A stretch of DNA of 64,000 nucleotides from Microbacterium atlanticum (GTDB lineage: Bacteria > Actinomycetota > Actinomycetes > Actinomycetales > Microbacteriaceae). The translations under genes and the position numbers were made by a program. The DNA is taken from positions 372,001-436,000 of the forward strand of contig NZ_CP063813.1 in NCBI RefSeq assembly GCF_015277815.1, read 5' to 3'. Positions 25,158 through 44,485 of this stretch are shown here, one piece after another (the stretch's first letter is position 1; each line of letters begins with the position of its first letter). A model generated the notes under the pieces. The model ran no database searches, was not told the DNA's origin, and saw only the letters and a list, made by a program, of their open reading frames with translations.

Positions 25158-25307
25158 GGGAACAGAAGCGAGAACAATCGCAGTGAATCGAGGGTGACTC
25201 GACGCAGCGTTTGAGAACTTGGAACGTTGATTTCATGCGGCTCTGTGACCTCATGTGATCCCTGTGACCGCATCCCGTATGCGTTCAAATCCCACCGTCA
25301 CCGCCAT
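25158..25307 (+). repeat. Direct repeat A: attachment-site scar ending in a tRNA-Ser 3' end
   Basis: These 150 bp align without gaps to 44336-44485, with 22 mismatches by my count. The last 25 bp (25283-25307) are identical and read as the T-loop, T-stem 3' strand and acceptor 3' strand of a tRNA-Ser (GTTCAAATCCCACC, GTCACCGCCA). The 5' side of the T-stem does not match, so this is not a complete tRNA. The upstream 125 bp are shared by both copies and must have come with the mobile element, perhaps its integrase 3' end and attP arm (inference). The intact tRNA gene is outside the window. Confidence 0.8.
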
Positions 25308-25315
25308 AAATCCCT

Positions 25316-25345
25316 GATCAGCGCTACTTTCGAGTGGCGCTGATC
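25316..25345 (+). terminator. Intrinsic terminator behind repeat A
   Basis: GATCAGCGC (25316-25324) pairs with GCGCTGATC (25337-25345); GGCGTTTTGCG follows. It would end the rhamnose operon transcript. Between here and 25551 (about 200 bp) I see no gene or recognisable site. Confidence 0.75.
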
Positions 25346-25551
25346 GGCGTTTTGCGAGCATTTCTTGTTCCCGCTAGTTGCGTCGCCTGCCTCAAGATCC
25401 GCAGGATTCCGCGGCAAACGGCGTAGTTACCGTGGTTTGGAGCACCACCGTGGACCGAGCGGGTGGGGCGCTCGGGCGCCGAACGTTGGGGGTCGTCGTG
25501 GTGGCGACCCGAGCGAGCAGCGGCGCCGATGGAACGCGGGAACCTCCAGGC

Positions 25552-26184
25552 CTAATTGTCCGTCGTAGACAGCAGCCGCATCAGGCGCTCCATCAGGGGC
25601 AGAACGTCGCGCCCAGGGTCGAGAAGCGCCTGTATACGCAGGCCGTCGATCATGGCGAGCACCATGGTGACCTTGTCGTCGGCGGTGAGCTCCTCATGGT
25701 CGTCGGCGGTAGCGAGACGGCCCGTGCCGAAGCTGCGACGCATGCGATCCCGCCGTGCGAGGAAGAACTCGTGGGCGGGATGGTCAGGATTGGTGGCCGC
25801 CACGGTGATCGCCAGCCAGTTGCGCTGCTGTTCGGGGTGAGCGAACTCCTCGCGCAGGACGGTGGACAGCACGCGCTCGGCCGGGACCTGAGCCTCCATG
25901 ATGCGCCGCGCCAGCTCCTCGTCCTGCTCGTCCCGCAGTGCGAGGGCGGCGAGAAGGAGCTCGTCCTTGCTGGCGAAGTGCCGCAGCAGCGCAGCATGGG
26001 TCACATTCGCCCGAGCGGCCATGTCGCGCAGTGACGCGCGCTCGTACCCATGCTCGGCGAAGCTCGCCGAGGCTGCGCGGACGATCTCCGCTCGGCGCGC
26101 CGGCGTGTTCGCGTAGGGCCCTCGGCGGCGGGTAGCGGGCTTCACGGGCCGATCCGACTCGACATCCTCGGCGACGTTCGACAT
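25552..26184 (-). CDS. TetR-family repressor, divergent from the MFS/GH78 operon
   Basis: This 210-residue regulator has an N-terminal TetR helix-turn-helix (RRAEIVRAASASFAEHGYERASLRDMAARANVTHAALLRHFASKDELL) and a variable all-helical ligand domain. I start at ATG 26184, where AGGAGG stands upstream, and not at 26211. It is divergent from the MFS gene at 26355, and two GTAACC/GGTTAC palindromes lie between them, one of them over a promoter. It probably represses itself and the seven-gene glycoside operon. The ligand may be an aglycone or glycoside (inference). Confidence 0.88.
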   Translation of the reverse strand: MSNVAEDVESDRPVKPATRRRGPYANTPARRAEIVRAASASFAEHGYERASLRDMAARANVTHAALLRHFASKDELLLAALALRDEQDEELARRIMEAQVPAERVLSTVLREEFAHPEQQRNWLAITVAATNPDHPAHEFFLARRDRMRRSFGTGRLATADDHEELTADDKVTMVLAMIDGLRIQALLDPGRDVLPLMERLMRLLSTTDN

Positions 26185-26224
26185 GGCTCCTCCTGTCACG
26201 GTCGCGATCACCGTGTCCGGCGAC

Positions 26225-26354: not shown

Positions 26355-27716
26355 ATGGTGACCAAGAACGAGCCGAACGCGCGGGCGCTCGCCGAGGGCC
26401 TCGCCGCTGCGGAACCGCTGCCGGGGAACGAGACGGCGCTCGACGTCGTCGACGCGCCGGCCGCCGCCGGACCCGGTGAGCCCACCACTCCGATGAGTCG
26501 CTCGTACATCCTCTGGCTCATGCTCGCCAGCTTCGGCGCTTCGATGGCGATGATGGTGCCGCTCTCGTACGGCATCGCGGTGCGCATCACCGAATTGGCT
26601 CCCGGTCATGAAGAGGTCCTCGGCTACATCACCGGGAGCGCGCAGCTCGTCTATCTCCTCATCAGCCCGCTCATCGGCATCTGGAGCGACCGCACGCGAT
26701 CGCGCTTCGGCCGCCGCTCGCCGTTCATCTATCTCGGCACCGGCATCGGCCTCGTCGGACTTGTGATCATCGGACTCGCACCGAACCTGCTGATCGTCGG
26801 AGCGGGGTGGGTGCTCGGCATGACCGGCTGGTCGATCGCCGGAGCAGCGCTGCAGACGCTGCAGGCCGACAAGCTTCCCGAGAAGCAGCGCGGAAAGGTG
26901 TCGGCTCTCACCGGGCTGATGACCCAGATCGCGCCGGTGCTCGGCATCGGCGTGGCCTACGCCGTGTCGTCGAGCACCCTGCTCATCTTCCTCGTACCGG
27001 GTCTCATCGGCGCCGTGTTCCTCGCGCTCTTCCCGCTCATCAAGCCGGAGGGCAGCTCGAAGGACATCCCGCAGCGCGACCAGGTGACGGTGAAGTCCGT
27101 CGTCACGAGCTATGGCTTCAACGTGCGGAAGTACCCGGACTTCGCCTGGAACTGGCTCGGCCGCTTCGTTTTCTTCATCGGCCTCTACTTCAACACCACT
27201 TTCGGCACGTTCTTCTACGCCCAGCGGCTCGACCTGCCCGTACGCGAGGTCGCCGGCATCGTGGCCACCGTGGGCATGATCGGCGTGCTGGCCGCCGCGG
27301 CCGGCGCCATCGTAGGCGGCTTCCTGTCCGACAAGCTCCAGCGTCGACGCCTCTTCGTCATGCTCGCGGCGCTGCTCTTCGTCGGAGGCGCGGTCGTCGA
27401 GGCCACGGCCTGGTCACTGCCGCAGATCATCGTGGGCGCCGTCCTGATGCAGCTGGCGATCGCGGTGTTCGCCACTGTCGATCAGGCGATCGTCTACGCG
27501 ATCATCCCCGAGCGCGACCAGGCCGGACGCTACATGGCGGTGATCCAGTTCGCGCAGAAGATCCCGAGCGCCGTGGCTCCGCTGCTCGCCGGCGTCGTCA
27601 TCACGATCGGGGCTGTCGGCGGCGACAAGAACTACACGCTCCTCTATCTGGCAGGTGCGGTGTTCGCGCTCGTGGGCGGGCTCATCATCCTGCTCAAGGT
27701 CAAGTCCGTCCGCTGA
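26355..27716 (+). CDS. MFS sugar/glycoside transporter
   Basis: This 453-residue membrane protein has about 12 helices after a 45-residue acidic, Ala/Pro-rich N-terminal tail. The signature loop between helices 2 and 3 is present (GIWSDRTRSRFGRRSPFIY), close to the pattern of sucrose and other glycoside carriers of the MFS. It would import a glycoside or sugar with a cation. The ATG at 26355 follows AAGGAG. It heads the TetR-controlled operon and lies 30 bp before the second GH78 gene, so a rhamnoside is a likely cargo. A second carrier of a different subfamily (GPH) closes the operon. Confidence 0.85.
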   Translation: MVTKNEPNARALAEGLAAAEPLPGNETALDVVDAPAAAGPGEPTTPMSRSYILWLMLASFGASMAMMVPLSYGIAVRITELAPGHEEVLGYITGSAQLVYLLISPLIGIWSDRTRSRFGRRSPFIYLGTGIGLVGLVIIGLAPNLLIVGAGWVLGMTGWSIAGAALQTLQADKLPEKQRGKVSALTGLMTQIAPVLGIGVAYAVSSSTLLIFLVPGLIGAVFLALFPLIKPEGSSKDIPQRDQVTVKSVVTSYGFNVRKYPDFAWNWLGRFVFFIGLYFNTTFGTFFYAQRLDLPVREVAGIVATVGMIGVLAAAAGAIVGGFLSDKLQRRRLFVMLAALLFVGGAVVEATAWSLPQIIVGAVLMQLAIAVFATVDQAIVYAIIPERDQAGRYMAVIQFAQKIPSAVAPLLAGVVITIGAVGGDKNYTLLYLAGAVFALVGGLIILLKVKSVR

Positions 27717-27746: not shown

Positions 27747-30410
27747 ATGCTGCACAATGCACCCTTCGGTCTGTCGGTCGACAGCGGCGGTGACCAGTTC
27801 GCCGTCACCGGGGACCGGCCGCGCCTGTCGTGGAAGAACCCGATCGATTCATCGGACCGGTCCGTCGTCGAGGCGACCGTCGACGGCGGCCTCCCCGTCA
27901 CCGCCAATGTCGCCGGGCACCGCTTCGTGGAGTGGCCCTTCGGCCCGCTCGGCAGCGGCAGCCGCGTGCAGTGGCGGGTGCGCGAGGATGCACCGGATGC
28001 CGCGTGGTCGGAACTCGCGGAGTTCGAGGTCGGACTGCTCGACCAGGATTGGTCGGCCGACTGGATCTCCGCCGTCGAAGGAGACGATCCGGGGTACGGG
28101 CAGCGCCCAGTCGCCGTACTGACCGGCTGCTTCGAGCTCGACACCGAGGTCGTCTCCGCCCGGCTGTACGCGACGGCGTTGGGGATCTACACCGCAGCTG
28201 TGAACGGACGCCGCGTCGGCACGGACGAGCTCGCCCCCGGTTCCACCTCCTACGACCGCACGCTCTACGCCCAGGCCCACGACGTCACCGCCCTCGTCGG
28301 TCCCGGCGAGAACCGCATCGAGGTCGAGCTCTCCGACGGCTGGTTCCGTGGCCAGGTGGGTGCCCACCGCCGCCCCGCGCAGTGGGGAACGACGACGGCA
28401 CTCCGACTCGAGCTGCACGTGCGCCTGCGCGATGGATCGCTGCAGGTCTTCGGCACCGACGAAACCTGGACCAGCCGCCCGTCCACGATCATCCGTGCCG
28501 ATCTCATGGCCGGTCAAGCGGTCGATTTCTCGAAGGCGGCTTCGCGGCGGCATCCCGTGCGTGTCGGAGCGATCGACGCGCCGACGATCGACTGGTCTCC
28601 GGCCCCTCCGGTGAGAGTGATCGAGACCCGCTCACCGGTCGCCGTGAAGCGTCTGGGCGATGACGTGTGCGTGATCGACTTCGGTCAGAACGCATCGGGC
28701 TGGATCCGATGCACAGATCTCGGTGCGGTGGGCACCAGGACAGTGATCGAGTACGGCGAGTACGTCGACGCGACGGGCGACCTGTCCACCTCCCATCTCG
28801 ACTCCACGCAGCCCGGTCACGACCCGCTCGTGTTCATCCAGCGGGACGAGGTGACCGCCGGACCTGCTGGTGCGGTCTTCGAGCCGCGCCACACGGTGCA
28901 CGGATTCCAGTACGTCCGGATCACCAGGACGGGGTCTCCGCTGGACGCGGCATCCGTCACCATGCAGGTCGTCCACACCGACCTCGCTCGCTCGGGCACG
29001 TTCGAGTCCAGCGAACCCGACCTGAACCGGCTGCACGAGATCGCGGAGTGGAGCTTCCGTGGCAACGCCGTGGATGTGCCGACCGACTGCCCAACCCGTG
29101 AGCGGCTGGCTTGGACGGGCGACTACCAGGTGTTCGCCCCGACCGCGACACGGCTGTATGACGTCCACGGCTTCACCCGGAAGTGGCTGCGGTCGGTCAG
29201 GGATGACCAGCTCGACGACGGCCGCATCGCGAACTTCTCGCCCGACGGCCGCCAGATCAAACGCCATCTGGACGATCAGTTCGCGATGATGACTGGATCG
29301 TCGGGCTGGGGCGATGCGATCGTCGCCGTCCCCTGGGAGATGTACGTCTCCTACGGCGACGAATCCGTTCTCGCGGAGAACTACGACGCCATGGTGCGGT
29401 GGGTGGAGTGGGCTCTGGCCCAGGCTCGCGGCTCGCGACACCACGCGCGTGCGCAGGCATCCCCCGACCCAGAACCCTTCGAGGAATACCTCTGGGACGG
29501 CACGTTCCACTGGGGAGAGTGGACCGAGCCCAAGCAGCGCGACGCAGACGGCAATTTCATCGACCCGATCAAGCACAACCCCATGGCCTGGTTCATGGCG
29601 GACAAGGGCGAGGTGGGGACCGCGTTTCTGCACCGCTCGACGTCGACCCTGGCGCGCATCGCCGAGATCCTGGGACGAGGAGCGGATGCTGCGCGCTACG
29701 CCGAGGTCGCCGCCAAGGTCGCAGCCGCCTGGCGTGACGCGTACCTGCGCGAGGACGGAACGACGGTCACCGACACCCAGGCGGCCTACGTCCGCGCCCT
29801 GTCGTTCGGGCTCATCCCAGACGCGCTGCGTGCGGCGGCGATCGACCGCCTCGTGGAGCTGATCCGCGAGGCCGGAACCCATCTCGGCACGGGCTTCCTC
29901 GCAACCGGCGATCTGCTGCCGGTACTCACGGATGCGGGTCGTGCCGACATCGCGCACGAGCTCCTGTTCCAGCGCACGGCGCCGTCCTGGCTCTATATGG
30001 TCGACCGCGGAGCGACGACCATCTGGGAGGACTGGGAGGGTATTGATGAGCAGGGCATCGCCCACGAGTCGCTGAACCACTACAGCAAAGGCGCGGTCAT
30101 CAGGTTCCTGCACACTCACACGCTCGGCCTGCGTCAGGATTTCGGCTCCGTCGCGTGGGAGAAGGTCGTGATCGCTCCGGTGCCCGCACCAGGGATGACT
30201 TGGGCGCGCGGCGCGCATGACGGCCCGCAGGGGCGCATCGACGTCGAGTGGCGTGTGGAGGGCGACCGCATCCGCATCTCCGCGGACATCCCGGGCGGCA
30301 CCCACGCGCGGATCGTGTTCCCGGACGGAACCGAGCGCCAGGCGGGGCCCGGCCGCTTCGACGAGACCGCCGGGATGCCGGCATCCCTTCCCGCTGTCAG
30401 CGTGCGCTGA
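27747..30410 (+). CDS. Alpha-L-rhamnosidase, glycoside hydrolase family 78 (second, divergent)
   Basis: This 887-residue enzyme lacks a signal peptide and so works on imported rhamnosides. Early beta-domains carry WISAVEGDD and DGWFRGQVGAHRRPAQWG. The catalytic barrel has DCPTRERLAWTGD at residues 447-459, with Asp447, Glu452 and Asp459 at the 5- and 7-residue spacing of characterised GH78 enzymes; TTIWEDWEG holds the likely general base, Glu761. The other GH78 here (4572) has one residue more in this motif, so the two belong to different GH78 subgroups and probably cut different linkages. An insertion around residues 560-620 (GSRHHARAQASPDPEPFEEY and onward) is longer than in the first enzyme. 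Confidence 0.94.
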   Translation: MLHNAPFGLSVDSGGDQFAVTGDRPRLSWKNPIDSSDRSVVEATVDGGLPVTANVAGHRFVEWPFGPLGSGSRVQWRVREDAPDAAWSELAEFEVGLLDQDWSADWISAVEGDDPGYGQRPVAVLTGCFELDTEVVSARLYATALGIYTAAVNGRRVGTDELAPGSTSYDRTLYAQAHDVTALVGPGENRIEVELSDGWFRGQVGAHRRPAQWGTTTALRLELHVRLRDGSLQVFGTDETWTSRPSTIIRADLMAGQAVDFSKAASRRHPVRVGAIDAPTIDWSPAPPVRVIETRSPVAVKRLGDDVCVIDFGQNASGWIRCTDLGAVGTRTVIEYGEYVDATGDLSTSHLDSTQPGHDPLVFIQRDEVTAGPAGAVFEPRHTVHGFQYVRITRTGSPLDAASVTMQVVHTDLARSGTFESSEPDLNRLHEIAEWSFRGNAVDVPTDCPTRERLAWTGDYQVFAPTATRLYDVHGFTRKWLRSVRDDQLDDGRIANFSPDGRQIKRHLDDQFAMMTGSSGWGDAIVAVPWEMYVSYGDESVLAENYDAMVRWVEWALAQARGSRHHARAQASPDPEPFEEYLWDGTFHWGEWTEPKQRDADGNFIDPIKHNPMAWFMADKGEVGTAFLHRSTSTLARIAEILGRGADAARYAEVAAKVAAAWRDAYLREDGTTVTDTQAAYVRALSFGLIPDALRAAAIDRLVELIREAGTHLGTGFLATGDLLPVLTDAGRADIAHELLFQRTAPSWLYMVDRGATTIWEDWEGIDEQGIAHESLNHYSKGAVIRFLHTHTLGLRQDFGSVAWEKVVIAPVPAPGMTWARGAHDGPQGRIDVEWRVEGDRIRISADIPGGTHARIVFPDGTERQAGPGRFDETAGMPASLPAVSVR

Positions 30411-30440: not shown

Positions 30441-31670
30441 ATGACGAACTTCCCCGATGGATTCCTGTGGGGCGCCGCGACCGCCGGCCACCAGATCGAA
30501 GGCAACAACGTCAACAGCGACTGGTGGGCACGCGAGCAGATGATGCCCGGCATGGAGCTGTCCGGCGACGCCGTGGACAGCTACCACCGCTACCGCGAGG
30601 ACATCCAGCTTCTCGCCGATGCGGGCCTGACGTCCTACCGGTTCAGCCTCGAGTGGTCGCGCATCGAGCCGGTGCGCGGGCACTTCTCCAAGGCGGAGCT
30701 CGCGCACTACCGCCGCATGATCGAGTTCTGTCTCGACAACAGCGTGACGCCGGTCGTCACCCTGCAGCACTTCACAACGCCGCAGTGGTTCGCCGCGCTC
30801 GGCGGATGGGAATCGCCCGAGGCGGAGGCGCTGTTCTGCGCATACGTCGAGCAGGCGTGCACGATCCTCGACGGCGTCGAGTGGGTCGCCACCATGAACG
30901 AGCCCAACATGCAGGCCGCCATCATGACGGCGATGCGCCATCTCTCCGCCTCGGGAGGCGACTGGACCAGCCCGACCGTCGAGGCCGAAGGCGACGATCA
31001 GAAGAAGCAGACGCACAGCGAGTTCCTGACGTACGCCGATCCGGAGATCGGCCGCATGTTCACCCGGATCCATCACGCGGCACGCGCGATCGTCCGCGAT
31101 CGGACCAGCGCGAAGGTCGGTTGGACGATCGCCGCGGGAGCGCTGACCGCCGCACCCGGCGGCGAGGAGAAGCTGCGGCAGATCCGATACGGCAAGGAGG
31201 ACGTGTACTGGGAGGGCAGTCGCGGCGACGACTTCGTCGGCGTGCAGGCCTACTCCTCCCAGCAGGTCGACGCGAACGGGCTCGTCCCGCACCCGCCGCA
31301 CCCCGACAACACGCTCGTCGGCACCGCGTTCCGCCCCGACTCGCTCGCCATGGCGGTGCGCCACGCGTGGGAGATCAGCCAGCACACGCCCATCGTGATC
31401 ACCGAGAACGGCATCGCCACTGCCGACGACGAGCAGCGCATCCGCTACACGGGCGAAGCCCTGCAGGGTCTGCTCGGCACGATCGCCGACGGCATCGACG
31501 TGCAGGGTTATCTGCACTGGTCGCTGCTCGACAACTTCGAGTGGGGGCACTGGGAGCCGACGTTCGGCCTCATCGCCGTCGACCGCGACACCTTCGTCCG
31601 CACCCCCAAGCCGAGCCTCGCGTGGCTCGGCCAGGTGGCGCAGCGCAACTCGCTGTCGTGGGAGGCCTGA
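30441..31670 (+). CDS. Beta-glycosidase, glycoside hydrolase family 1
   Basis: This 409-residue retaining beta-glycosidase has a single TIM barrel and acts in the cytoplasm. The N-terminal family signature FLWGAATAGHQIEG, the acid/base Glu154 in TMNEPN, and the nucleophile Glu322 in ITENGIA are all intact. It is 40 to 60 residues shorter than most GH1 beta-glucosidases, chiefly through short barrel loops. It lies in the TetR operon directly after the second GH78, and so may remove a beta-linked glucose, galactose or fucose exposed once rhamnose is gone. The exact sugar cannot be read from the sequence. Confidence 0.93.
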   Translation: MTNFPDGFLWGAATAGHQIEGNNVNSDWWAREQMMPGMELSGDAVDSYHRYREDIQLLADAGLTSYRFSLEWSRIEPVRGHFSKAELAHYRRMIEFCLDNSVTPVVTLQHFTTPQWFAALGGWESPEAEALFCAYVEQACTILDGVEWVATMNEPNMQAAIMTAMRHLSASGGDWTSPTVEAEGDDQKKQTHSEFLTYADPEIGRMFTRIHHAARAIVRDRTSAKVGWTIAAGALTAAPGGEEKLRQIRYGKEDVYWEGSRGDDFVGVQAYSSQQVDANGLVPHPPHPDNTLVGTAFRPDSLAMAVRHAWEISQHTPIVITENGIATADDEQRIRYTGEALQGLLGTIADGIDVQGYLHWSLLDNFEWGHWEPTFGLIAVDRDTFVRTPKPSLAWLGQVAQRNSLSWEA

Positions 31671-31673
31671 CCG

Positions 31674-32471
31674 ATGAAGATCTCGGGCAAGACGTTCGTC
31701 GTCACCGGCGCCGGTAACGGCATCGGCCGCGAGGTGACGCTTCAGCTCCTCGCCACCGGTGCATCGGTCGCAGGTGTCGACCTCAACGAAGCCGGCCTGC
31801 GGAGGACCGCGGAGCTCGCCGATGCTGGTTCGCGGTTCACTTCGCATGTCGTGAACATCACGGACAGGGATGCCGTGGAGGCGCTGCCAGCGCAGGTCGA
31901 GTCTGCCCACGGCCCTGCCGACGGCGTGATCAATGTCGCGGGCGTGATCCAGAAGTTCGTGAAGGTCACCGATCTGGCCTACTCGGAGATCGAGAAGGTC
32001 ATGAACGTGAACTTCTGGGGCACGATGAACATGGTCAAGGCGTTCCTGCCGGTGCTGACCTCGCGTCCCGAAGCCGCCCTCGTGAATGTCGCGAGCATGG
32101 GCGCTTATGCTCCGGTCCCCGGTCAGGCCGTTTACGGGGCATCCAAGGCGGCCGTGAAGGTGCTCACCGAGGCGCTCTACGCCGAGCTTCTCGACACGTC
32201 CGTCGCGGTGACGGTGATCTTCCCGGGCGCGATCGGCACAGATATCGCCGCGAACTCGGGTGTGGCGCTGTCGGACGGGTCGCAGGACGCGCCCGCGTAC
32301 AAGACGACCCCGCCCTCTGCCGCCGCGGCAGTCATCGTCGACGCCGTGATCAAGGGCAGGTACCGGGCCACCATCGGGAGCGACGCGGCGACGATGGACA
32401 AGCTCTCGCGCCTCAACCCAAAGCGGGCAACCACCCTCATCGCCAAGCAGATGGGCGCTCTGCTCAACTGA
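31674..32471 (+). CDS. Short-chain dehydrogenase/reductase
   Basis: This 265-residue NAD(P)-dependent SDR has the nucleotide-binding TGAGNGIG, an Asp after the second strand that favours NAD (GVDLNEAGL), the N-V-A-G variant of the NNAG motif, and catalytic S-x-YGASK (VYGASKAAVKV). It lies 4 bp after the GH1 gene. The C-terminal half (GRYRATIGSDAATMDKLSRL) resembles SDRs acting on larger hydrophobic alcohols or ketones, which would fit aglycone oxidation, but sugar oxidation is equally open. Confidence 0.85.
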   Translation: MKISGKTFVVTGAGNGIGREVTLQLLATGASVAGVDLNEAGLRRTAELADAGSRFTSHVVNITDRDAVEALPAQVESAHGPADGVINVAGVIQKFVKVTDLAYSEIEKVMNVNFWGTMNMVKAFLPVLTSRPEAALVNVASMGAYAPVPGQAVYGASKAAVKVLTEALYAELLDTSVAVTVIFPGAIGTDIAANSGVALSDGSQDAPAYKTTPPSAAAAVIVDAVIKGRYRATIGSDAATMDKLSRLNPKRATTLIAKQMGALLN

Positions 32472-32560: not shown

Positions 32561-33394
32561 ATGTCTTTCCCGTTCGCCGACGTTACCAACCGTCCACTAT
32601 CCGAGCTTCTCTCGTTGCGCGGACGCCGCGCCGTCGTGACCGGTGCTGCCCAGGGCCTAGGCAAGGCCATCGCCTCCCGCTTGGCCGAGGCTGGCGCCGA
32701 CCTTCTGCTGATCGACCTCAATGCCGACGCCGCCGATTCCGCGGCCACGGAATTGGCGCAGCGCTACGGGGTCCGCGTACTGAGCACGCGCGCCGACGTC
32801 GCCGATGCTGCGTCCGTTGTCGCCGCGGCTGATTTCGCCGCCGCCGAACTCGGCGGCATCGACGTCTGGGTCAACAACGCGGGGATCTTCCCGAACGCGC
32901 CTGTGACGGTGATGCCGGACGAGATGTGGGATTCCACCTTCGCCGTCAACGCCCGCGGCGTGTTCCTCGGAGCACGTGAGGCCGCACGCCGGATGTCGGC
33001 GGACGGTTCGGGCGGGGTCATCGTGAACATTATTTCCACGGCCGGCGTGCAGGTGGCGTTCCCAGGCATGGCCGCCTACGTCGGCTCGAAGCATGCGGCG
33101 CTGGGCATGACCAAGTCGCTCGCGGTCGACCTGGCCCCCCTCGGCATTCGCGTGCTCGGCGTCGCGCCGAGCTTCGTCCCGACCGAGGGCAATCTCGCCG
33201 CCGCGAAGGCCGGCGCCGAGGCGGCTGCCGCGGCGGGCATCGAGATGCCTCCGCTGGAGGTCATGAACAAGAGCATGATCGGCCGAATGGGCACCCCCGA
33301 CGACATCGCCCGCGTCGTGCTCTTCGCCGCCAGCGACCTCTCGATGATCATGACGGGCAGCACCCTCATGGCCGACGGCGGCGAGACGCTCTGA
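32561..33394 (+). CDS. Short-chain dehydrogenase/reductase, classical SDR (FabG-like)
   Basis: This 277-residue classical SDR has TGAAQGLGKAIA for nucleotide binding, Asp-Leu-Asn after strand 2 favouring NAD, VNNAGIF, and the catalytic Ser-Tyr-Lys (IISTAGVQ, YVGSKHAALGM). I start at ATG 32561, with AAGGAG upstream; the frame also opens at 32504 without one. It shares little with the SDR upstream beyond the family core. In this operon it may oxidise a sugar or an aglycone released by the glycosidases. Confidence 0.86.
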   Translation: MSFPFADVTNRPLSELLSLRGRRAVVTGAAQGLGKAIASRLAEAGADLLLIDLNADAADSAATELAQRYGVRVLSTRADVADAASVVAAADFAAAELGGIDVWVNNAGIFPNAPVTVMPDEMWDSTFAVNARGVFLGAREAARRMSADGSGGVIVNIISTAGVQVAFPGMAAYVGSKHAALGMTKSLAVDLAPLGIRVLGVAPSFVPTEGNLAAAKAGAEAAAAAGIEMPPLEVMNKSMIGRMGTPDDIARVVLFAASDLSMIMTGSTLMADGGETL

Positions 33395-33432: not shown

Positions 33433-34437
33433 ATGCTCACATGGGGGATCATCGGCACCGGCGACATATCGGAGCGGCTGGTGGCCGACCTCATGACGCT
33501 CCCGGACGCGCGCGTGTCTGCGGTGTGGGGGAGGTCGGCCGCGCGTGCCGACCACTTCGCCCGGACGCACGGCATCCCTGTCGCGACGGAATCACTCGAC
33601 GCGCTCCTCGCCCGCGACGATGTCCGCGTTGTGTATATCGCCACGCCAGCCCACACCCACGCCGACATCGCGATCGAAGCGCTCGCGGCGGGCAAGCACG
33701 TCCTGATCGAGAAGCCGATCGCGGGAAGCGCCCCGGAGGCGGAGCGCATCTTCGCGGCGGCTCGAGCAGCGCGCCGCTTCGCGATGGAGGCGATGTGGAT
33801 GCGATTCAATCCGCTCCATGTCGACCTCCTCGACCGGATCGGCGCTGGATTGCTCGGTGAGGTGAGCAGCGTGCGTGCGAGCTTCGGCACGCCTTTCCAC
33901 CCGCGGGGGCGCGTCCGGAAGCCGGCAGACGCGGGAAGCGCGCTGCGCGATCGGGGAATCTACGCGGTCACCCTCAGCAGCTGGTTCCTCGGTGAGCCCA
34001 TGCGGATCGCGGCCTCGGGGGTCTTCGACGGCGACGTCGACACGTCGGGCCATACGACGCTCGAGAGCGGGAGCGGCTTCGCGCACTTGTCGTGGTCGGG
34101 CACGGAGTTCCTCGACCTGTCGGCGTCGGTGGCCGGGGCCCGTGGATGGGTGACGATCGCTCCCATGTTCTGGGCCGGAACGCGCGCGAACGTGCATGCG
34201 GGGTCCGCCGAGGCGATCTTCGGATCGCCGGAGGTCATCGAGCATCCGCGTCTGGGCAACGGATATCGGCCGATGCTCACTGCCGTCGCCGATGCGATCC
34301 AGTCGGGGCTTCTCGAGCATCCGTGGCACACGCACGCCGACACGCTCGCGGTCTCTCGCTCGATGGACCAAATCATCTCAGCAATGCGCTCGGCGCAGTC
34401 GGTGTCCCCGCCGCGATCCGTTCCGAATCTCTACTGA
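33433..34437 (+). CDS. Gfo/Idh/MocA-family oxidoreductase
   Basis: This 334-residue NAD(P)-dependent enzyme has an N-terminal Rossmann domain (WGIIGTGDISERLVADL), the family's EKP lysine motif (HVLIEKPIAGS), and a C-terminal alpha/beta substrate domain (MEAMWMRFNPLH). Relatives oxidise or reduce sugars, dihydrodiols and inositols, and some act on 3-keto-glycosides. AAAGGAG precedes the ATG at 33433. It is the sixth gene of the TetR-controlled operon and would handle a sugar released there. Confidence 0.87.
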   Translation: MLTWGIIGTGDISERLVADLMTLPDARVSAVWGRSAARADHFARTHGIPVATESLDALLARDDVRVVYIATPAHTHADIAIEALAAGKHVLIEKPIAGSAPEAERIFAAARAARRFAMEAMWMRFNPLHVDLLDRIGAGLLGEVSSVRASFGTPFHPRGRVRKPADAGSALRDRGIYAVTLSSWFLGEPMRIAASGVFDGDVDTSGHTTLESGSGFAHLSWSGTEFLDLSASVAGARGWVTIAPMFWAGTRANVHAGSAEAIFGSPEVIEHPRLGNGYRPMLTAVADAIQSGLLEHPWHTHADTLAVSRSMDQIISAMRSAQSVSPPRSVPNLY

Positions 34438-36108: not shown

Positions 36109-37326
36109 TCAGCGGGAGTGCAGCTCCCGGTAGGCACTCGGTGTCATCCCGTACTCAGCGCGAAACACCTTGACGAAGTAGTTCGCGTCTTCGTACCCGA
36201 CGAAGACGGCGATATCCCGCACGCTCTGCGTGGTGGTCGCGAGAAGGCGGGCCGCGCGCTCCGCTCGCCGACGGGCGACGTAGCCGACGACAGTCGTACC
36301 CGTCGCATCCTTGAACCGGCGAGCCAGTGTCGACGTCGAGACGCCGAGTCGCTCAGCCAGCTCCACGGTCGAGACGTGGTGGCTCAAGTGAAGGTCGATC
36401 TCGTCGGTCACCCGACGCACGAGCGGGGGATAGCTGCGCTGACGGTGGCGCCGCACGCCCTGGCAGAAGTCCGTGACCATCTGCGCCGTGAAGCCGAAGG
36501 TCCGGCGAGGATCGGACGTGTGGCCGATGCGATGCAGCCGCTGGGCGTATTCCTGCGAGATCGCGTCGATCGTCACAGCCGGCAGGCCTCCGCGCTGCGC
36601 CGCGACGCGTGCCATGATGCGCAGGATGGTAGCGCCGAGGAACGGCGTGTTGAGGTAGCCGCTGATCCGCGGCATCCCGGACAGCTTCTGCAGGGCCGCC
36701 AGCGCGTCCTCGGCAGAGCCATCGGCGACCGCGTCCATGAACTCCTGCTCCCGCTGGTAGCGCTCCTCCACCACCGCGAACGACGCGGACTGCGGAGCGT
36801 CACCCAGCCCCGGCGTGATCGTCCCCGCTTCCGCCTTGACGTGCTGCAGACTCCCCAGCGTGTCCTCGGCGCCGGCGGCACGCAGCAGCGCTGCAGCGCT
36901 GCGGTACACGTACTCGGCGTCGAGGATCGGGTAACGCGTTCGATAGAGCTTGTACAGCGAGAGGTGCGCGGTGGGAATGGCGAGCCGGCTCATGAGCTCC
37001 TCCGCAGTCCCTGGGTACAGAGGCTCGTGTGTATAGGGGCCGATGAGGAGAAGGCGATCGTTCCAGCGCGCGACGGACACCGCCATGCCGAGCGGCTCCT
37101 CGATCTCGTGAACGACCTGAGGGGGCATTCCATCGACGAACGACCGCAGTGCGGCGACGGTGAAGGCCGGCTGCAGCTGGGGGTTCAGGCAGTGATCGCG
37201 TTCGAAGGTCGTCAGGGCTGAGTCGATGTCGCTGGTGAGCACCAGGGGGCAGCTGAGCACCTCCGCGAGCACCGCGATGACCGGCTCGAGGCTCGCGTCG
37301 CGCTCGGCAGGTGAGTCCGTTGCCAC
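36109..37326 (-). CDS. AraC-family regulator, divergent from the uronate operon
   Basis: This 405-residue regulator has a long N-terminal sensor region (about 290 residues) without a cupin signature, and a C-terminal AraC DNA-binding domain with two helix-turn-helices (STVELAERLGVSTSTLARRFKDATG and VRDIAVFVGYEDANYFVKVFRAEYGMTPSAYR). The GTG start at 37326 follows AGGAG. It is divergent from GH2-uxaC-uxuB-manD and is therefore the likely activator of glucuronide use. The N-terminal half, with VYRSAAALLRAAG and repeated helices, resembles the YsiF/PocR-like sensors of Firmicute AraC proteins only loosely, so its ligand is open. Confidence 0.87.
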   Translation of the reverse strand: MATDSPAERDASLEPVIAVLAEVLSCPLVLTSDIDSALTTFERDHCLNPQLQPAFTVAALRSFVDGMPPQVVHEIEEPLGMAVSVARWNDRLLLIGPYTHEPLYPGTAEELMSRLAIPTAHLSLYKLYRTRYPILDAEYVYRSAAALLRAAGAEDTLGSLQHVKAEAGTITPGLGDAPQSASFAVVEERYQREQEFMDAVADGSAEDALAALQKLSGMPRISGYLNTPFLGATILRIMARVAAQRGGLPAVTIDAISQEYAQRLHRIGHTSDPRRTFGFTAQMVTDFCQGVRRHRQRSYPPLVRRVTDEIDLHLSHHVSTVELAERLGVSTSTLARRFKDATGTTVVGYVARRRAERAARLLATTTQSVRDIAVFVGYEDANYFVKVFRAEYGMTPSAYRELHSR

Positions 37327-37462: not shown

Positions 37463-39703
37463 ATGACGCAGCCTCCCCCCGACCTCGCCCGCCGGGTGAC
37501 CCCGATCCTCGACGACTGGGCGTTCGCGCCACTCGAACTGGCGGTGGACTCGAGCTGGGACGACGTGGTCGAGGCGGGAGAGCCTGTCACCCTGCCGCAC
37601 ACGTGGAACGCGGCAGATGGTCAGGCGGGCGGCGGATACCGGCGTGGGCGCTCGACGTATGCGCGGCGTGTGTCGGCGGTTACTGACGCCGCGGAGACGT
37701 GGGTGGAGTTTGCCGGCGTGAACTCCTCCGCCGAGGTGTATGTCGGTGGCCAGCTGCTCGCCCGGCACGACGGCGGGTACTCGACGTTCCGCGTGGACCT
37801 CACGGCCGTTCTTGCCGACGGCCCCGCGACCCTCCTCGTCATCGTCGACAACTCCGCGAACGAGACGGTATACCCGCAGCAGGCCGATTTCACTTTCTAC
37901 GGGGGCATCTACCGCGACGTTCGGCTGCTGGGTGTGGGCACCGTCCACTTCGCTCTCGGTGAGGCCGGCGGCCCGGGTCTCACCGTGGTGCCCACTCTCG
38001 ACGGCGATCACGCCGACGTAGCGCTCAGCGCGCGCGTGGATGGCGGGGCTGCGGCATCCGTGCGCTTCCACATAGACCGCGAGACGGCGCAGACCGTCCC
38101 CGTCGCAGCCGGCGAGGCGATCGCCACCCTCCGGATCGAGCGGGTGCGCCGGTGGCACGGCCTGCGTGACCCCCACCTCTACACGGCACGTGCCGAACTC
38201 CTCGTGGAAGGCGAAGTGGTCGACGAAGTCGAGCTGCGATTCGGATGCCGCGAGTTCGCGGTCGACCCGCAGCGCGGCTTCCTGCTCAACGGCGAGGAGT
38301 ATCCGCTGCGTGGAGTCTCGCGCCACCAGGACCACGAAGGGGTCGGCAATGCCATCACCGAGGAGATGAAGCTGACCGACCTGGCCCTGATCCGCGAGCT
38401 CGGTGCCACGACCGTGCGCCTCGCTCACTACCAGCACGACCAGCGCTTCTACGAGCTGTGCGATGAGGCCGGACTGGTGGTGTGGGCCGAGATCCCCCAG
38501 ATCACCGTCTTCCTTCCCGGTGCGACGGACAACGCGCGCGACCAGCTCACCGAGCTGATCGTCCAGAACCGTCACCACGCGAGCATCGTCTGCTGGGGAC
38601 TGTCGAACGAGATCACGCTGGCGGGCGCCGGCGAAGACGTCGTGGCGGCGCACCGCGAACTGAACGAGCTCGCACATCGCCTCGATCCGACCCGGCTCAC
38701 GGCCATGGCGAACCTGTTCCTGCTCGAGACCGATCACCCGCTGGTCACCGTGCCCGACGTGATGTCGTACAACCTCTACTTCGGGTGGTATGTGGGGGAG
38801 GCGGCCGACAACGACACGTGGCTCGATGACTTCCACGCCGCCTACCCCGGCATCGCGATCGGCCTCTCGGAGTACGGCGCCGACGCCAATCCGCAGTATC
38901 AGTCGGCGGAGCCGGCGAAGGGCGATTACACCGAGTCGTACCAGGCGCTGTACCACGAGCACCTCGTCGAGATGATCGAGGAGCGCCCCTGGCTCTGGGC
39001 CACGCACGTGTGGAACCTCGCCGACTTCGGCTCGGCCGGGCGTGACGAGGGCGGGGTGGCCGGCCGCAACCAGAAGGGGCTCGTCTCCTTCGACCGCACC
39101 CTCAGGAAGGACGCCTTCTACGTCTACAAGGCGGCGTGGTCGACTGAGCCTTTCGTGCACGTCGCGGGTCGGCGCAGGGCCGATCGTGCGGAGGAAGTCA
39201 CCGAGGTCGTCGTGTACTCGAACCAGCCCCGTGTCACGCTCCTGGTCGACGGCATGGAGGCGGGGACGACCGAGGGACGTCGTGCGTTCCGGTTCGACGT
39301 CCCGATCTCGGGACAGCACCAGATCACCGCGCGGGCGGGCGAGCTGGTCGACACGATCTTCCTTCGCAAGGTCGACGAGGTGACCGCAGCGGCGGTGCGG
39401 CCGACGACGACGATCGCGAACTGGTTCGAAGACGCAGAGCTTCCCAGCCCGACGGGATTCTTCTCCATCCGCGACACTCTCGCCGACATCAAGCAGTCGG
39501 AGGATGGGGCGCGCGTGATCGCCTCGGTCATGGAGGCCATGGCGACCAGCCGCGGTGAAGTCGGCCGCGGGGTGGAGATCCCGCCGGCGATGCTCAAGAT
39601 CATCGATCGGATGAGCGTCGAGAAGCTGCTCCAGCAGGCCGGCGAGGTGCCGATCGAGCAGGTGGCGGCGCTCAATGCTCAGCTGAACCTCATCGCCAAG
39701 TGA
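37463..39703 (+). CDS. Glycoside hydrolase family 2 enzyme (beta-glucuronidase or beta-galactosidase)
   Basis: This 746-residue retaining exo-glycosidase has the GH2 order: jelly-roll sugar-binding domain (FYGGIYRDVRLL), Ig-like sandwich, TIM barrel. The acid/base is Glu383 in CWGLSNEI, the nucleophile Glu470 in GLSEYGAD. N-Q-K at 536-538 matches the N-x-K motif needed for uronate binding in beta-glucuronidases, but similar GH2 beta-galactosidases also carry it. Its first place in a hexuronate operon favours glucuronidase or galacturonidase activity (inference). A C-terminal extension of about 100 residues, rich in DTLADIKQSEDGARVIASV, is reminiscent of an added helical domain. The ATG at 37463 follows AAGGAG. 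Confidence 0.88.
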   Translation: MTQPPPDLARRVTPILDDWAFAPLELAVDSSWDDVVEAGEPVTLPHTWNAADGQAGGGYRRGRSTYARRVSAVTDAAETWVEFAGVNSSAEVYVGGQLLARHDGGYSTFRVDLTAVLADGPATLLVIVDNSANETVYPQQADFTFYGGIYRDVRLLGVGTVHFALGEAGGPGLTVVPTLDGDHADVALSARVDGGAAASVRFHIDRETAQTVPVAAGEAIATLRIERVRRWHGLRDPHLYTARAELLVEGEVVDEVELRFGCREFAVDPQRGFLLNGEEYPLRGVSRHQDHEGVGNAITEEMKLTDLALIRELGATTVRLAHYQHDQRFYELCDEAGLVVWAEIPQITVFLPGATDNARDQLTELIVQNRHHASIVCWGLSNEITLAGAGEDVVAAHRELNELAHRLDPTRLTAMANLFLLETDHPLVTVPDVMSYNLYFGWYVGEAADNDTWLDDFHAAYPGIAIGLSEYGADANPQYQSAEPAKGDYTESYQALYHEHLVEMIEERPWLWATHVWNLADFGSAGRDEGGVAGRNQKGLVSFDRTLRKDAFYVYKAAWSTEPFVHVAGRRRADRAEEVTEVVVYSNQPRVTLLVDGMEAGTTEGRRAFRFDVPISGQHQITARAGELVDTIFLRKVDEVTAAAVRPTTTIANWFEDAELPSPTGFFSIRDTLADIKQSEDGARVIASVMEAMATSRGEVGRGVEIPPAMLKIIDRMSVEKLLQQAGEVPIEQVAALNAQLNLIAK

Positions 39704-41106
39704 GCGCCGCGATGACAGCCGGTGGGCGCTATCGCCTCTTCCCCGCAGAGCAGCGCCTGCGCGAGCTCGCGGCGGATCTCCACGACGAGGTCGCGACCGC
39801 TCCGATCATCTCGCCGCATGGACACGTCGATCCGCGTCTCCTGGCGGACGATGTGCCGTTCTCCGATCCGGCCGACCTGCTCATCACGCACGATCACTAC
39901 GTCACGCGGCTGCTCCACGCGGCGGGTGTGTCCCTCCCCGAACTCGGGCTGGACGCGGCGCACCCGGTCGATCCGCGCCAGCCCTGGCGCATCCTGGCAG
40001 CGCACTGGCACCGGTTCGCCGGCACTGCGAGCGGCTTCTGGATCGCCGACGAGCTCGCGTCGCTCTTCGGCGTGACCGACGAGCTGGGGCCCGAGAACGC
40101 GGACGCCGTCTACGACCGAGTCGCGGCGGCCCTCCGCACCGACGGGTTGCGCCCGCGCGCGCTGTTCGAGCGATTCCGAATCGAGCTTCTCGCCACCACC
40201 GACGACCCGCTCGACGACCTCTCCGTCCATCAGCGGCTCGCCGACGACCCTGCATTCCGCGGGCGGGTCGTGCCGACGTTCCGGCCCGACGCCTACCTCG
40301 ACCCCGAAGCATCCGGATTCTCCGACCGAGTCCACAGACTCCTCGGTGCGACCGGACGCCCCGCCACGTTCGACGGATACCTCGGCGCGATCGAAGACCG
40401 GCGCTCCCACTTCATCGCGCACGGCGCGGTGTCGGCCGACCACGGCGTGCTGGAGCCGCTCACCCTCGACCTCGATCCCGGGGCGGCGCAGCGGCTGTTC
40501 GCTGACGCCCTGGAAGGACGGATGGATGCCGCGGATGCGCGCGTCTTCCGCGGTCACATGCTCTTCCAGATGGCGCGCATGAGCACGCAGGACGGGCTGG
40601 TCATGACCGTCCACCCCGGGGTGCGTCGCAATCATCACCGGCCCACGCTCGACAGGTTCGGGCCTGACACCGGGCACGACATCCCGGTGCGCACTGAGTA
40701 CACCGAGAACCTGCGTCCTCTCCTCGAGGCCTTTGGCACGGTGCCTGGCTTCCACCTCGTGCTGTTCGCGGTCGATGAGACTGTCTTCTCTCGAGAGATC
40801 GCTCCTCTCGCCGGCTTCTATCCCAGCGTCTACATCGGCGCCCCCTGGTGGTTCCTCGACGCCCCCGACGCGATGCGCCGCTGGCGCGCCGCCGTGACGG
40901 AGACGGCGGGTTTCTACCGGTCGAGCGGGTTCATCGACGACACCCGCGCGTTCCTGTCGATCCCCGCCCGACATGACACCTCGCGCCGGGTCGATGCCGG
41001 CGTTCTCGCACGACTGGTCGACGAGGGCCGCGTGAGCATGCCCACCGCGCGGCGAATCATGCGCGACCTGGTCGAGACCATTCCGCGCGAGGTGTTCAAG
41101 CTGTGA
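39700..41106 (+). CDS. uxaC: Glucuronate (uronate) isomerase
   Basis: This 468-residue amidohydrolase-fold enzyme interconverts D-glucuronate and D-fructuronate (or galacturonate and tagaturonate). The metal-binding start ISPHGHVDPRLL (His40, His42) and the long helical tail typical of UxaC (FGTVPGFHLVLFAVDETVFSREIAPLAG, RHDTSRRVDAGVLARLVDEGR) are present. The GTG start at 39700 overlaps the GH2 stop. It catalyses the first intracellular step on the released uronate. Confidence 0.94.
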   Translation: MSAAMTAGGRYRLFPAEQRLRELAADLHDEVATAPIISPHGHVDPRLLADDVPFSDPADLLITHDHYVTRLLHAAGVSLPELGLDAAHPVDPRQPWRILAAHWHRFAGTASGFWIADELASLFGVTDELGPENADAVYDRVAAALRTDGLRPRALFERFRIELLATTDDPLDDLSVHQRLADDPAFRGRVVPTFRPDAYLDPEASGFSDRVHRLLGATGRPATFDGYLGAIEDRRSHFIAHGAVSADHGVLEPLTLDLDPGAAQRLFADALEGRMDAADARVFRGHMLFQMARMSTQDGLVMTVHPGVRRNHHRPTLDRFGPDTGHDIPVRTEYTENLRPLLEAFGTVPGFHLVLFAVDETVFSREIAPLAGFYPSVYIGAPWWFLDAPDAMRRWRAAVTETAGFYRSSGFIDDTRAFLSIPARHDTSRRVDAGVLARLVDEGRVSMPTARRIMRDLVETIPREVFKL

Positions 41107-42560
41107 GCCCGACCGCTGCACGCCGCGCCGGTGCCGTCGGCGTCCTTCTCGATCGACGGGCGGCAGGGGCGGTCGCCCCGCCCGAACGCATGGTCCACCT
41201 CGGGCTGGGCGCGTTCCACCGTGCCCACCAGGCCTGGTATACCGCGCACGCCACCGACGCAGAGCAGTGGGGGATCGTCGCGTTCACGGGACGCAGCCGC
41301 GATCTCGTCGACCGGCTGGGGCCGCAGGGCGGCGTGTACACGCTTATCGAGCGCGGCGCCGACAATGACGCGTTCGAGATCATGCCGAGCATCGTCCGCG
41401 TCGAAGCGGGCGATGACGTGGACGCCTTCGTCGCCACGGTGGAGCAACCTGACATCGCCATCCTCACGCTCACGATCACCGAGGCCGGGTACCGCGTCGA
41501 TGAGCGCGGCAGCCTCGATCCGGCCGATCCGGCCGTGAGCGCCGACATCGCCCTACTGGCGACCGCCGTCAGCGGCTCGGGAAGTGATCGCGAGCCCTCC
41601 CACCCGATCACCGCACTCGGCCGGATTCTCCTGGCGCTGCATGCTCGCCGCCTCGCCGGTGGCGGCCCGATCGCTCTCGTCTCCTGTGACAACCTCCCCG
41701 ACAACGGTGGGTTGCTGCAGCGCGCGCTGCAAGACCTCGCCGCAGCGGTCTCGCCCGAGTTGGCTCACTGGATCGACCAATCGGTGTCGTTCGTGTCCAC
41801 ATCCGTCGACCGGATCACACCGGCGATCGACTCGGCCGCCGAGTCGGCAGCGGTCGCCGATGCGACGGGGTGGCTGGACGCGGCGCCTGTGGTCACCGAG
41901 CCGTTCTCGGACTGGGTGCTCTCCGGCGACTTCCCGGCCGGCCGCCCGGATTGGGAATCAGCGGGCGCCCGCTTCGTCGATGACCTCACCCCGTGGGAGA
42001 ACCGCAAGCTCTGGGCCCTCAATGGGGCGCACACCGTGCTCGCTGCGCTGGGTCAGGCACGCGGGCACACGATGGTGAGCACCGCGATCGACGACCTCGT
42101 GTGCCGCCAGGTTGTGCGGGCCGTGTGGGACGACGTCGCGCGGCAGCTGCCGATGCTCGACCTCGCGGCCTACCGCGTCGCGCTGGTCCAGCGGTTCCGC
42201 AACCGTCGTATCGAGCATCGCCTCGCGCAGATCGCGCTCGACTCGACCACCAAGATGCGGCTGCGCATCGTCCCGGTTGCGCTCGGCGAGCGGGCGGCAG
42301 GCCGGTCCGCGGAGGGGTGCGCGGCTGCGGTCGCCGCATGGATGGTCGGCGCGGGCGCAGGTGCGGTGGTGAGCCCTATCGCCGCAGCGGTCGGCGACCG
42401 AATCCTCCATCCAGAGGTCCAGCGCGAGCTCCTCGGTGCCCTCGATCCTCGACTGGCGTCCGACGAAGACTTCGCCGCCCGCGTTTCCGTGGCGGTCGAC
42501 CGGCTCGCGGCATCCGGAGTGTCCTTTTCACCGTCCACAGAAGGAGTCGAACACCCATGA
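41103..42560 (+). CDS. uxuB: Fructuronate reductase (mannitol dehydrogenase family)
   Basis: This 485-residue NAD-dependent polyol/uronate reductase has the N-terminal Rossmann pattern [17 protein letters not shown], the inter-domain [12 protein letters not shown], and [15 protein letters not shown]. The catalytic lysine and substrate region lie in [14 protein letters not shown]. It would reduce D-fructuronate to D-mannonate. The GTG start at 41103 overlaps the uxaC stop. Tagaturonate reductase is the alternative, but the mannonate dehydratase gene next to it favours the glucuronate branch. Confidence 0.92.
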
Positions 42561-43795
42561 TCATCGACAAGGCCGAGGTGATCGTCACCAGCCCCGACCG
42601 CAACTTCGTCACGCTGAAGCTGACGACGGACGAGGGGCATACGGGTCTCGGCGACGCCACACTCAACGGGCGTGAACTCGCCGTTGTCGCGTACCTGACG
42701 GAGCACGTCGTCCCTTTGCTGATCGGGGCGGACGCGTCTCGAATCGAAGACACGTGGCAGTTCCTCTACCGGTCCGCGTATTGGCGCCGCGGGCCGGTCA
42801 CGATGGCGTCCATCGCCGCGGTCGACATGGCGTTGTGGGACATCAAGGGCAAGGCGGCCGGGATGCCGGTCTACCAACTGCTCGGCGGCGCCAGCCGAAC
42901 CGGGCTCATGGCCTACGGTCACGCGTCGGGCAAAGAGCTGCCGGAACTGTTCGACTCGATCCGCTCGCACCAGGAGCAGGGCTACAAGGCGATCCGCGTG
43001 CAGACCGGGGTGCCGACGCTCAAGGCGATCTACGGCATCGCCGCCCAGGGCGCCGACGTCGGCGACGCGACCGTGCGCTACGACCACGAGCCGGCCCGCC
43101 GCGGCGCGAAGCCGGTCGAGGAGGACTGGGACACCCGCGCCTACCTCAACCACCTGCCGGGGGTGTTCGAGGCGGTGCGCAACGAGTTCGGCCCCGACAT
43201 CCCGCTGCTCCACGACGGTCACCACCGCATGACGCCGATCCAGGCGGCCCGGCTCGGCAAGGACCTCGAGCCGTACGACCTGTTCTGGCTCGAGGACTGC
43301 ACCCCTGCCGAGAACCAGGAGGCGCTGCGGCTGGTCCGTCAGCACACCACGACCCCCCTGGCGATCGGCGAGATCTTCAACACGGTATGGGACTTCAAGG
43401 ACATCATCCGTGACCAGCTGATCGACTACGTCCGCGGCGCCGTGACCCACATGGGCGGCATCACGGCGCTCAAGAAGACGCTCGACTACGCGGCGATGTA
43501 CCAGATCAAGTCGGGCATGCACGGTCCGACCGACATCTCGCCGGTCGGGATGGCCGCGGCGATGCACCTGGGCCTGTCGATCCACAACTTCGGCATCCAG
43601 GAGTACATGAAGCACGGTGTGAAGACCGACCAGGTGTTCCAGCAGTCGTTCACCTGGACCGACGGCTACCTGCACCCCGGCGACAAGCCGGGCCTCGGCG
43701 TCGAGCTCGACGTCGACGAGGCAGGCAAGTACCCGTACGAGCAGGCGTACTTGCCGTACAACCGGCTCCTCGACGGCACTGTTCACGACTGGTGA
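42557..43795 (+). CDS. manD: D-mannonate dehydratase, enolase superfamily (ManD)
   Basis: This 412-residue Mg-dependent enzyme dehydrates D-mannonate to 2-keto-3-deoxy-D-gluconate. It is of the enolase-superfamily ManD type and not the UxuA TIM-barrel type. Diagnostic stretches are [64 protein letters not shown] and [19 protein letters not shown]. The ATG at 42557 overlaps the uxuB stop, and its own stop overlaps the kinase start, so five genes run as one coupled operon. No KDG kinase or KDPG aldolase gene follows here. Confidence 0.93.
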
Positions 43796-44364
43796 GTTTC
43801 GACGCACAGCTGCCGGGCATCGTCGTCATGGGGGTGTCGGCGTCGGGCAAGACCTCGGTCGCCGCGGAGCTGGCTCGGCTCCTGCGGCGGTCGATGATCG
43901 ACGCAGACGACCTGCACCCGGCTGCGAGCGTAGCGAAGATGGCGGCGGGGCGGCCGCTCGACGACGCCGATCGGTGGCCGTGGCTGGATGCTGTGGCGGA
44001 TCGACTCGCTGCTCCCGAACGGCCGGTGGTCGCGTGCTCCGCGCTCAAGCGGTCGTACCGTGACCGGCTGCGTGTGGCCGCACCGAACCTGGTCTTCATC
44101 CACCTGACCGGCTCGCCCGATCTGCTCGCCGAGCGTGCCGGGGACCGCCGGGGCCACTTCATGCCGCCGTCCCTGTTGCGGTCCCAGTTCGATGCCCTCG
44201 AGATGCTCCAGCCCGATGAGATGGGCGTGGAGTTTGACGTCGCGGCATCCGTTGACGACATCGCTCACGACGCGCGTGACTGGGTGTCAGGATTCGTGTG
44301 GACCAGCGTGAACGGGGTGGTCTCGTCCGTCCCTCGGGAACAAGAGCGGGAACAACCGCAGTGA
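43792..44364 (+). CDS. Gluconokinase-like carbohydrate kinase with a tail encoded in repeat B
   Basis: This 190-residue P-loop kinase matches thermoresistant gluconokinase: Walker [10 protein letters not shown], the substrate motif [33 protein letters not shown] and [13 protein letters not shown]. The family usually ends near residue 165-175. Here the last nine codons (EQEREQPQ plus stop) come from the repeat that begins at 44336, so the natural 3' end seems to have been replaced at integration. It starts at GTG 43792, overlapping the manD stop. It may phosphorylate gluconate or, less certainly, a related aldonate from the pathway. Confidence 0.88.
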
Positions 44365-44485
44365 ATCGAGCGTGTTTCGATGCAGTGTTTGAGAACTGGG
44401 AACGTTGATTTCATGCGGTTCTGAGACCCCATGAGACCCCTGTGATGCGGTCCCGTAAGGGTTCAAATCCCACCGTCACCGCCAT
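44336..44485 (+). repeat. Direct repeat B: attachment-site scar ending in a tRNA-Ser 3' end
   Basis: This is the partner of 25158-25307: 150 bp, 22 mismatches, no gaps, with the final 25 bp (44461-44485) identical. It ends in the acceptor-stem sequence GTCACCGCCA and a T. Base pairing of the T-stem fails on the 5' side (GTAAGG before GTTCAAATC), so it is not a functional tRNA. The centre-to-centre distance to copy A is 19,178 bp. No integrase gene remains in the window. Confidence 0.8.

Follow-up and report, generated by a model that had tools for sequence, protein, structure and literature searches.

Two stacked, probably decayed integrative islands with sugar-degradation genes at tRNA-Ser(CGA) of Microbacterium atlanticum

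Introduction

Stacked islands devoid of integrase genes are already known in other bacteria. In the part of PMC5704250 that deals with accretion and refers to original work on Streptococcus thermophilus, cis-mobilizable elements (CIMEs) are arranged in tandem where a tRNA gene has its 3' end, and they have kept their attachment sites and lost their integration and transfer genes. The ssrA islands of Dehalococcoides, as treated in the relevant portion of PMC3146451, stand in tandem behind one RNA gene, with repeated copies of its 3' end as boundaries; the left end of 16 of these islands has an integration module, and 15 islands lack it and are possible CIMEs. Here, an array of this type is described in Microbacterium atlanticum (RefSeq assembly GCF_015277815.1), in a stretch of 64,000 nt (hereafter the window) that corresponds to positions 372001-436000 of the single 3,712,988-bp contig NZ_CP063813.1. 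A block of genes for glycoside and uronate breakdown, window 25307-44484, lies there between two repeats that end in the 3' end of a tRNA-Ser, and it is very probably the second of two stacked, decayed CIME-like islands that accreted at a tRNA-Ser(CGA) hot spot. A literature report of CIMEs in Microbacterium was not found in a search that left most subscription papers outside.

Tandem units behind tRNA-Ser(CGA)

The two repeats, copy a and copy b (Table 1), align without gaps over 150 nt with 22 mismatches and are identical in their final 25 bases, exactly as the initial annotation of the window had it, and the similarity ends on either outer side. In a genome-wide search, copy a matched copy b with an E-value of 3.7e-43 and the complete repeat occurred twice in the genome, so this is no dispersed repeat unrelated to tRNA genes, an option that the initial annotation had left standing; both full copies end in the tRNA 3' end. 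The 3'-terminal 25-mer of copy b is found at three sites of the 3.71-Mb genome at up to 2 mismatches, all on the + strand (genome 357706-357730, 397282-397306, with 1 mismatch and belonging to copy a, and 416460-416484); the reversed 25-mer, used as a control, had 0 matches in the genome, and there is no fourth copy of the 3' end in genome 345001-450000 at up to 7 mismatches in 25. The first of these sites belongs to the intact tRNA-Ser(CGA) gene, which ARAGORN placed at genome 357640-357730, 14.3 kb to the left of the window, and the same program found no tRNA gene within the window itself.

The order on one strand is the tRNA gene, 39.6 kb, copy a, 19.2 kb and copy b. These are at least two tandem units with common attachment sites, as in an accretion array, and both limits of each unit are a tRNA 3' end, with the predicted attL and attR retained as in a CIME. 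The idea of successive integrations at a tRNA-Ser, with the repeats as element-derived junctions and the intact gene located elsewhere, is borne out by the three 3' ends in this order. The unit between the tRNA gene and copy a (unit 1), which fills the left part of the window, had been missed. The GC content is 67.8% in unit 1 and 67.7% in unit 2, 71.2% to the left of the tRNA gene and 70.4% to the right of window 48764.

Ends of the units and integrase genes

Copies a and b form a family of homologous right ends with those of two units from relatives, G282 and G013, each standing behind a tRNA-Ser end (G numbers denote the genomes of the genus that were compared, one per species). The left ends are related as well: the DNA after copy a has 91% identity over 46 nt to G282 and 93% over 46 nt to G013, and the DNA after the intact tRNA gene has 70% identity over 85 nt to G282 and 92% over 24 nt to the DNA after copy a. 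The G282 (18.3 kb) and G013 (31 kb) units are free of PF00589 and PF00239 matches, and their scanned proteins (10 of 17 and 10 of 26, respectively) fall into families of metabolism, transport and regulation. In 3 of 366 genus genomes, namely M. atlanticum, G282 and G106, a tRNA-Ser end was found to be followed within 65 nt by GGGAACA words; the G106 unit is 9.6 kb long with a different right end, and four queries found no integrase in 40 kb. A 22-nt pattern of the arm had 0 matches when searched for in genome_contigs and viral_contigs, from which records of or near the M. atlanticum genome were possibly excluded. Relics of the right end with a mutated tRNA end occur at G282:C1:1770796-1770942 and G012:C3:798323-798468, hundreds of kb from the tRNA-Ser of those genomes.

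Words that stand just behind one tRNA end reappear about 125 nt before the next tRNA end. These include CGTGAACA in G242, GTGGCAACA and then GTGGACAC in G129, GTGAGAACA in G017, GTGCCCACA in G010, and GGGAACA in G282 and in unit 1 of M. atlanticum, which has the word CTGGGAACA in common to its left and right ends and keeps the pair GGGAACAAACTGGGAACA in its left end after the tRNA gene. Over 22 units from 12 genomes, the longest word shared by the two ends has a mean length of 8.23 nt against 6.67 nt for shuffled partners, and 0 of 20000 shuffles came as high, some of the units being related, so that their independence is overstated. By reading, 12 of the 22 units have a clear, family-specific arm word at both ends. 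Integrase arm sites follow a lambda-type pattern, and by analogy the shared words may be such sites.

According to the initial annotation, all integrase genes had gone from the block, and the searches agree with it. PF00589 has 6 matches in the genome, none in or beside the units; rightwards the nearest is about 1.0 Mb away, and on a circular contig there would be one 0.7 Mb to the left. PF00239 has 2 matches, at 145 and 248 kb only, again none in or beside the units. Neither unit has an integrase gene of its own adjoining the attachment site, as an intact integrative and conjugative element (ICE) or integrative and mobilizable element (IME) would have, and no transfer family was found among the 34 of 40 predicted proteins scanned, six proteins of unit 1 having been left out and short frames not called. 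The absence of integrase genes is clear, and they would have been present formerly and then lost.

In G021, a 451-aa tyrosine-integrase frame lies directly behind the tRNA gene in convergent orientation, with its stop codon beside the GTGACAAC word pair; integrases at the matching tRNA-proximal site are present in G129 (an 81% relative of that of G021), G236 and G007 and, truncated, in G017, and one also stands beside a tRNA-Ser end in G216. Since the integrases of relatives are tRNA-proximal and the 125 bp of each repeat outside the tRNA end lie at the opposite end, these 125 bp are probably not integrase-side sequence. They had been suggested to be an integrase remnant, a candidate that is rejected here for this position and because the C-termini of four integrases (G021, two of G129 and one of G236) had no meaningful match to either repeat or to the three left junctions, in a comparison that detected the G017 remnant as a positive control (E 3e-25 to 1e-31). 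The N-terminal part of the G021 frame does match copy b over 19 residues (E 0.002, the search space being very small), and this is taken as chance. Judging by its position and by the shared arm words, the 125-bp part would be the distal arm of the attachment site, a probable assignment.

The hot spot across Microbacterium

The exact 24-nt tRNA end is present in 273 of 290 genus genomes, with 0 matches to the reversed control in each; at least two copies are found in 78 of the 290 and at least three in 17 (hand count), some of the genomes being split over many contigs. tRNA-Ser(CGA) is a genus-wide hot spot. The copies are mostly, not always, stacked, and in G094, G099, G260 and G283 the second copy lies more than 0.7 Mb off on the opposite strand. 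A PF00589 match within about 2 kb downstream was found for 5 of 29 tRNA-end copies from 13 genomes, including M. atlanticum (G017, G021 and three in G216). G216 has six tRNA-Ser(CGA) 3' ends on the - strand (98264, 164082, 3841569, 3849701, 3884257 and 3901348), three of them with integrase matches, and these would form a single array across the contig start if its 3.91-Mb contig is circular.

Distribution of the sugar-degradation cassette

The GH2 gene of unit 2 is sporadic: 14 of 285 genomes of the genus carry it, at 15 places in total (E up to 1e-100), and the flanks were examined at 14 of these (the G224 place was left out). In G000, G028, G193, G153 and G223, the cassette has a tRNA-Ser end no more than 4 kb away, and the arm words adjoining the cassette vary among genomes. 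No tRNA-Ser end was seen at the cassette in G201, G202, G242, G049, G274, G238 (two places), G225 and G012, the left flank being short in G242, G049, G225 and one G238 place, where the listed tRNA-end copies of those genomes lie elsewhere. In G005, related TetR, MFS and GH78 genes stand 12 kb behind the tRNA gene. A chance association of cassette and tRNA end is put, as a rough guess, at 1-2% per carrier. The cassette is largely collinear in Agromyces and partly rearranged in Demequina, with a GH2 identity to these genera of 77-80%, similar to that among most Microbacterium. None of the 18 loci checked (L077-L094) has a tRNA gene, and the only one with a tRNA-Ser 3' end is L078, which is that of G223.

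The proposal that a whole catabolic island was delivered to the tRNA gene stands in part: the island is bounded at tRNA-Ser, and the cassette is also found with other arm words and off tRNA-Ser, so passenger and integration ends have been joined more than once.

Origin of the islands

It is proposed here that tyrosine-integrase elements, with an attachment site that includes the tRNA 3' end, would have inserted successively at tRNA-Ser(CGA). Each insertion would have rebuilt the tRNA gene and displaced the older unit, together with its copy of the tRNA 3' end, downstream, and the units would then have lost their integrase genes, keeping both attachment ends and their catabolic passengers. We infer the tyrosine integrase as the agent, the order of insertion, the loss by deletion and any remaining mobility from the arrangement of the array and its relatives.

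Several observations weigh against this origin. The 150-bp right end and an integrase were not seen together in any unit, so the loss is presumed; 10 of the 22 units compared have no clear arm word at both ends (G242.2, G236.2, G236.3, G216.2, G216.3, G216b.1, G138.2, G012.1, G013.1 and unit 2 of M. atlanticum). The two ends of unit 2, in the same orientation, have a longest common word of 6 nt, and its left end is recognisable by homology only. The cassette occurs away from tRNA-Ser too, as stated above. An empty-site strain was not found, and comparison of flank proteins did not settle where the chromosome resumes to the right: the protein at genome 445795 is present in 4 of 38 genomes (M. 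atlanticum, G302, G019 and G307), on a contig other than that of the tRNA gene where known, the protein at genome 425682 has its best matches far from tRNA-Ser copies, and the genes of the 445-kb region stand 6.5 kb behind the tRNA gene in G034, as a lone case.

It is possible, if unlikely, that integrases made the units and that the cassette of unit 2 arrived afterwards, when arrays at the hot spot recombined, by homology or otherwise. The differing arm words at the five genomes with a tRNA-Ser end at the cassette, its occurrence off tRNA-Ser elsewhere, and the last gene of unit 2, which continues straight into the arm of copy b, would all agree with such an arrival; however, both ends of unit 2 are from one family, as a single element predicts, and recombination breakpoints have not been mapped. 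Distinctly improbable is a satellite origin, in which the arm family never carries an integrase of its own and is moved in trans by that of another element, which would recognise GGGAACA-type arms. Four units with the 150-bp right end (units 1 and 2, G282 and G013), from three species, without an integrase match inside, and three genomes with the GGGAACA left end, none with an adjoining integrase, would be expected of satellites, but the units are few, the right end of G106 differs, no helper integrase was identified, and integrase loss is usual at this site, judging from the few tRNA-end copies with a match nearby. The view that the block is ordinary inherited chromosome with incidental repeats can draw on the collinear Agromyces cassette off tRNA-Ser, and it is almost certainly wrong, as is the synteny in most relatives that the initial annotation had envisaged as an alternative, because the sporadic carriers, the varied loci and a GH2 as close to Agromyces and Demequina as most Microbacterium pairs are to each other rule out vertical inheritance of the cassette, and because the repeats terminate in a tRNA 3' end.

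Beyond the two accreted and decayed islands favoured here, the GGGAACA-arm family might be a lineage of integrase-less catabolic islands that spreads between Microbacterium species via borrowed integrases, with tRNA-Ser(CGA) as a shared docking site where arm families exchange sugar-degradation cassettes; this wider idea is a speculative one that we consider improbable.

Gene content and neighbouring DNA

All 14 predicted proteins of unit 2 were scanned (Table 1), and the GH78, GH1, GH2, UxaC, Mannitol_dh and MR_MLE-type dehydratase genes that had been read between the repeats were recovered. The passengers, judged from their gene families, probably allow rhamnosylated and glucuronidated plant glycosides to be taken up and broken down. 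The homologue of the kinase in G274 ends at about residue 172 of the M. atlanticum protein, whose frame is about 18 residues longer, and this junction fits a deletion that may have fused the last gene to the arm.

Table 1. Features of the tRNA-Ser(CGA) array, in window coordinates unless genome positions are indicated
Feature	Position	Strand	Remarks
Unit 1	genome 357731-397306; window part 1-25306	.	profile-scanned proteins
Repeat copy a	25158-25307	+	probable distal arm (~125 bp) and displaced tRNA-Ser 3' end 25283-25306; right end of unit 1
Left-end remnant of unit 2	25308-25551	+	terminator-like hairpin and degenerate arm; no integrase match
TetR-type regulator	25552-26211	-	family match
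MFS transporter	26355-27716	+	family match
GH78 alpha-L-rhamnosidase	27747-30410	+	family match
GH1 glycosidase	30441-31670	+	family match
Two SDR dehydrogenases	31674-32471, 32636-33394	+	family match
GFO/IDH/MocA oxidoreductase	33433-34437	+	family match
MFS_2 sugar transporter	34546-36051	+	family match
AraC-type regulator	36109-37326	-	family match
GH2 glycosidase	37463-39703	+	family match; putative beta-glucuronidase
UxaC (uronate pathway)	39700-41106	+	family match
Mannitol/mannonate-type dehydrogenase (uronate pathway)	41190-42560	+	family match
MR_MLE-type, mannonate dehydratase-like enzyme (uronate pathway)	42557-43795	+	family match
Small P-loop kinase	43792-44364	+	frame stops inside copy b
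Repeat copy b	44336-44485	+	probable distal arm and displaced tRNA-Ser 3' end 44460-44484; right end of unit 2
DNA after copy b	44486-44710	+	74% identity over 221 nt to DNA behind the G028 tRNA-Ser

The passengers of unit 1, from which 20 of 26 predicted proteins were scanned, are an L-rhamnose/rhamnoside set. Its genes in the window include LacI and LysR regulators, sugar transport, GH78, GH3, a rhamnose-isomerase-like protein, an aldolase-SDR fusion, an FGGY kinase and an FMN dehydrogenase, and to the left of the window it has GH43 and GH30 genes and more transport. A LysR-type frame at window 297-1052 has the substrate-binding domain as its sole Pfam match, the DNA-binding part being absent or the start misplaced. 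The adjacent long frames 11586-14051 (GH3) and 15435-17576 have stretches with 72-77% DNA identity, which suggests an old tandem duplication.

The DNA after copy b is perhaps the left end of a third unit with Hen1-Pnkp, which would be a unit with no recognisable right end, or else older downstream DNA. The genes for the Hen1 and Pnkp RNA-repair proteins are found immediately to the right of copy b, at window 44885-48764. Pnkp is split here into overlapping frames of different phases (46246-46638 and 46632-48764), and in G015 it is a single 887-aa frame, 3.6 kb behind the tRNA-Ser. Because of the two phases against one G015 frame, the M. atlanticum gene looks broken by a frame shift, or the assembly is in error.

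Comparison with known systems

The array is one route to the degradation of plant sugars and uronates in a common genus of soil and plants, and the matching of arm words suggests a simple rule to pair the ends of stacked islands that have no integrases. Should arrays of this kind still be mobile by means of borrowed integrases, a single tRNA gene would serve the whole genus as a platform for gene exchange.

Like the CIMEs in the accretion part of PMC5704250, the M. atlanticum units stand in tandem at a tRNA 3' end, keep their ends and have no integrase match; unlike those, they may descend from neither an ICE nor an IME, carry catabolic passengers, belong to Microbacterium and are known from sequence alone. 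In the Streptomyces toxicogenic region TR1/TR2, as presented in the pertinent part of PMC8369830, an actinobacterial CIME also adjoins another element, with an internal attachment site, but its partner is an ICE, its movement was shown experimentally, its target is aviX1 and its cargo is different. Tandem integration in a tRNA gene is shared with the actinobacterial ICEs described in a section of PMC3218068, where it is due to tyrosine recombinases; those ICEs carry int, tra and rep genes, whereas the units described here lack any integrase match, and their scanned proteins include none from a transfer gene. In the portion of PMC3146451 on Dehalococcoides, the recombinase is of the serine type and the target is a tmRNA gene, in contrast to the tyrosine recombinases and the tRNA-Ser of M. 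atlanticum and its relatives; in being stacked, bounded by 3'-end repeats and made up of units that lack the integration module, the M. atlanticum array closely parallels those ssrA islands.

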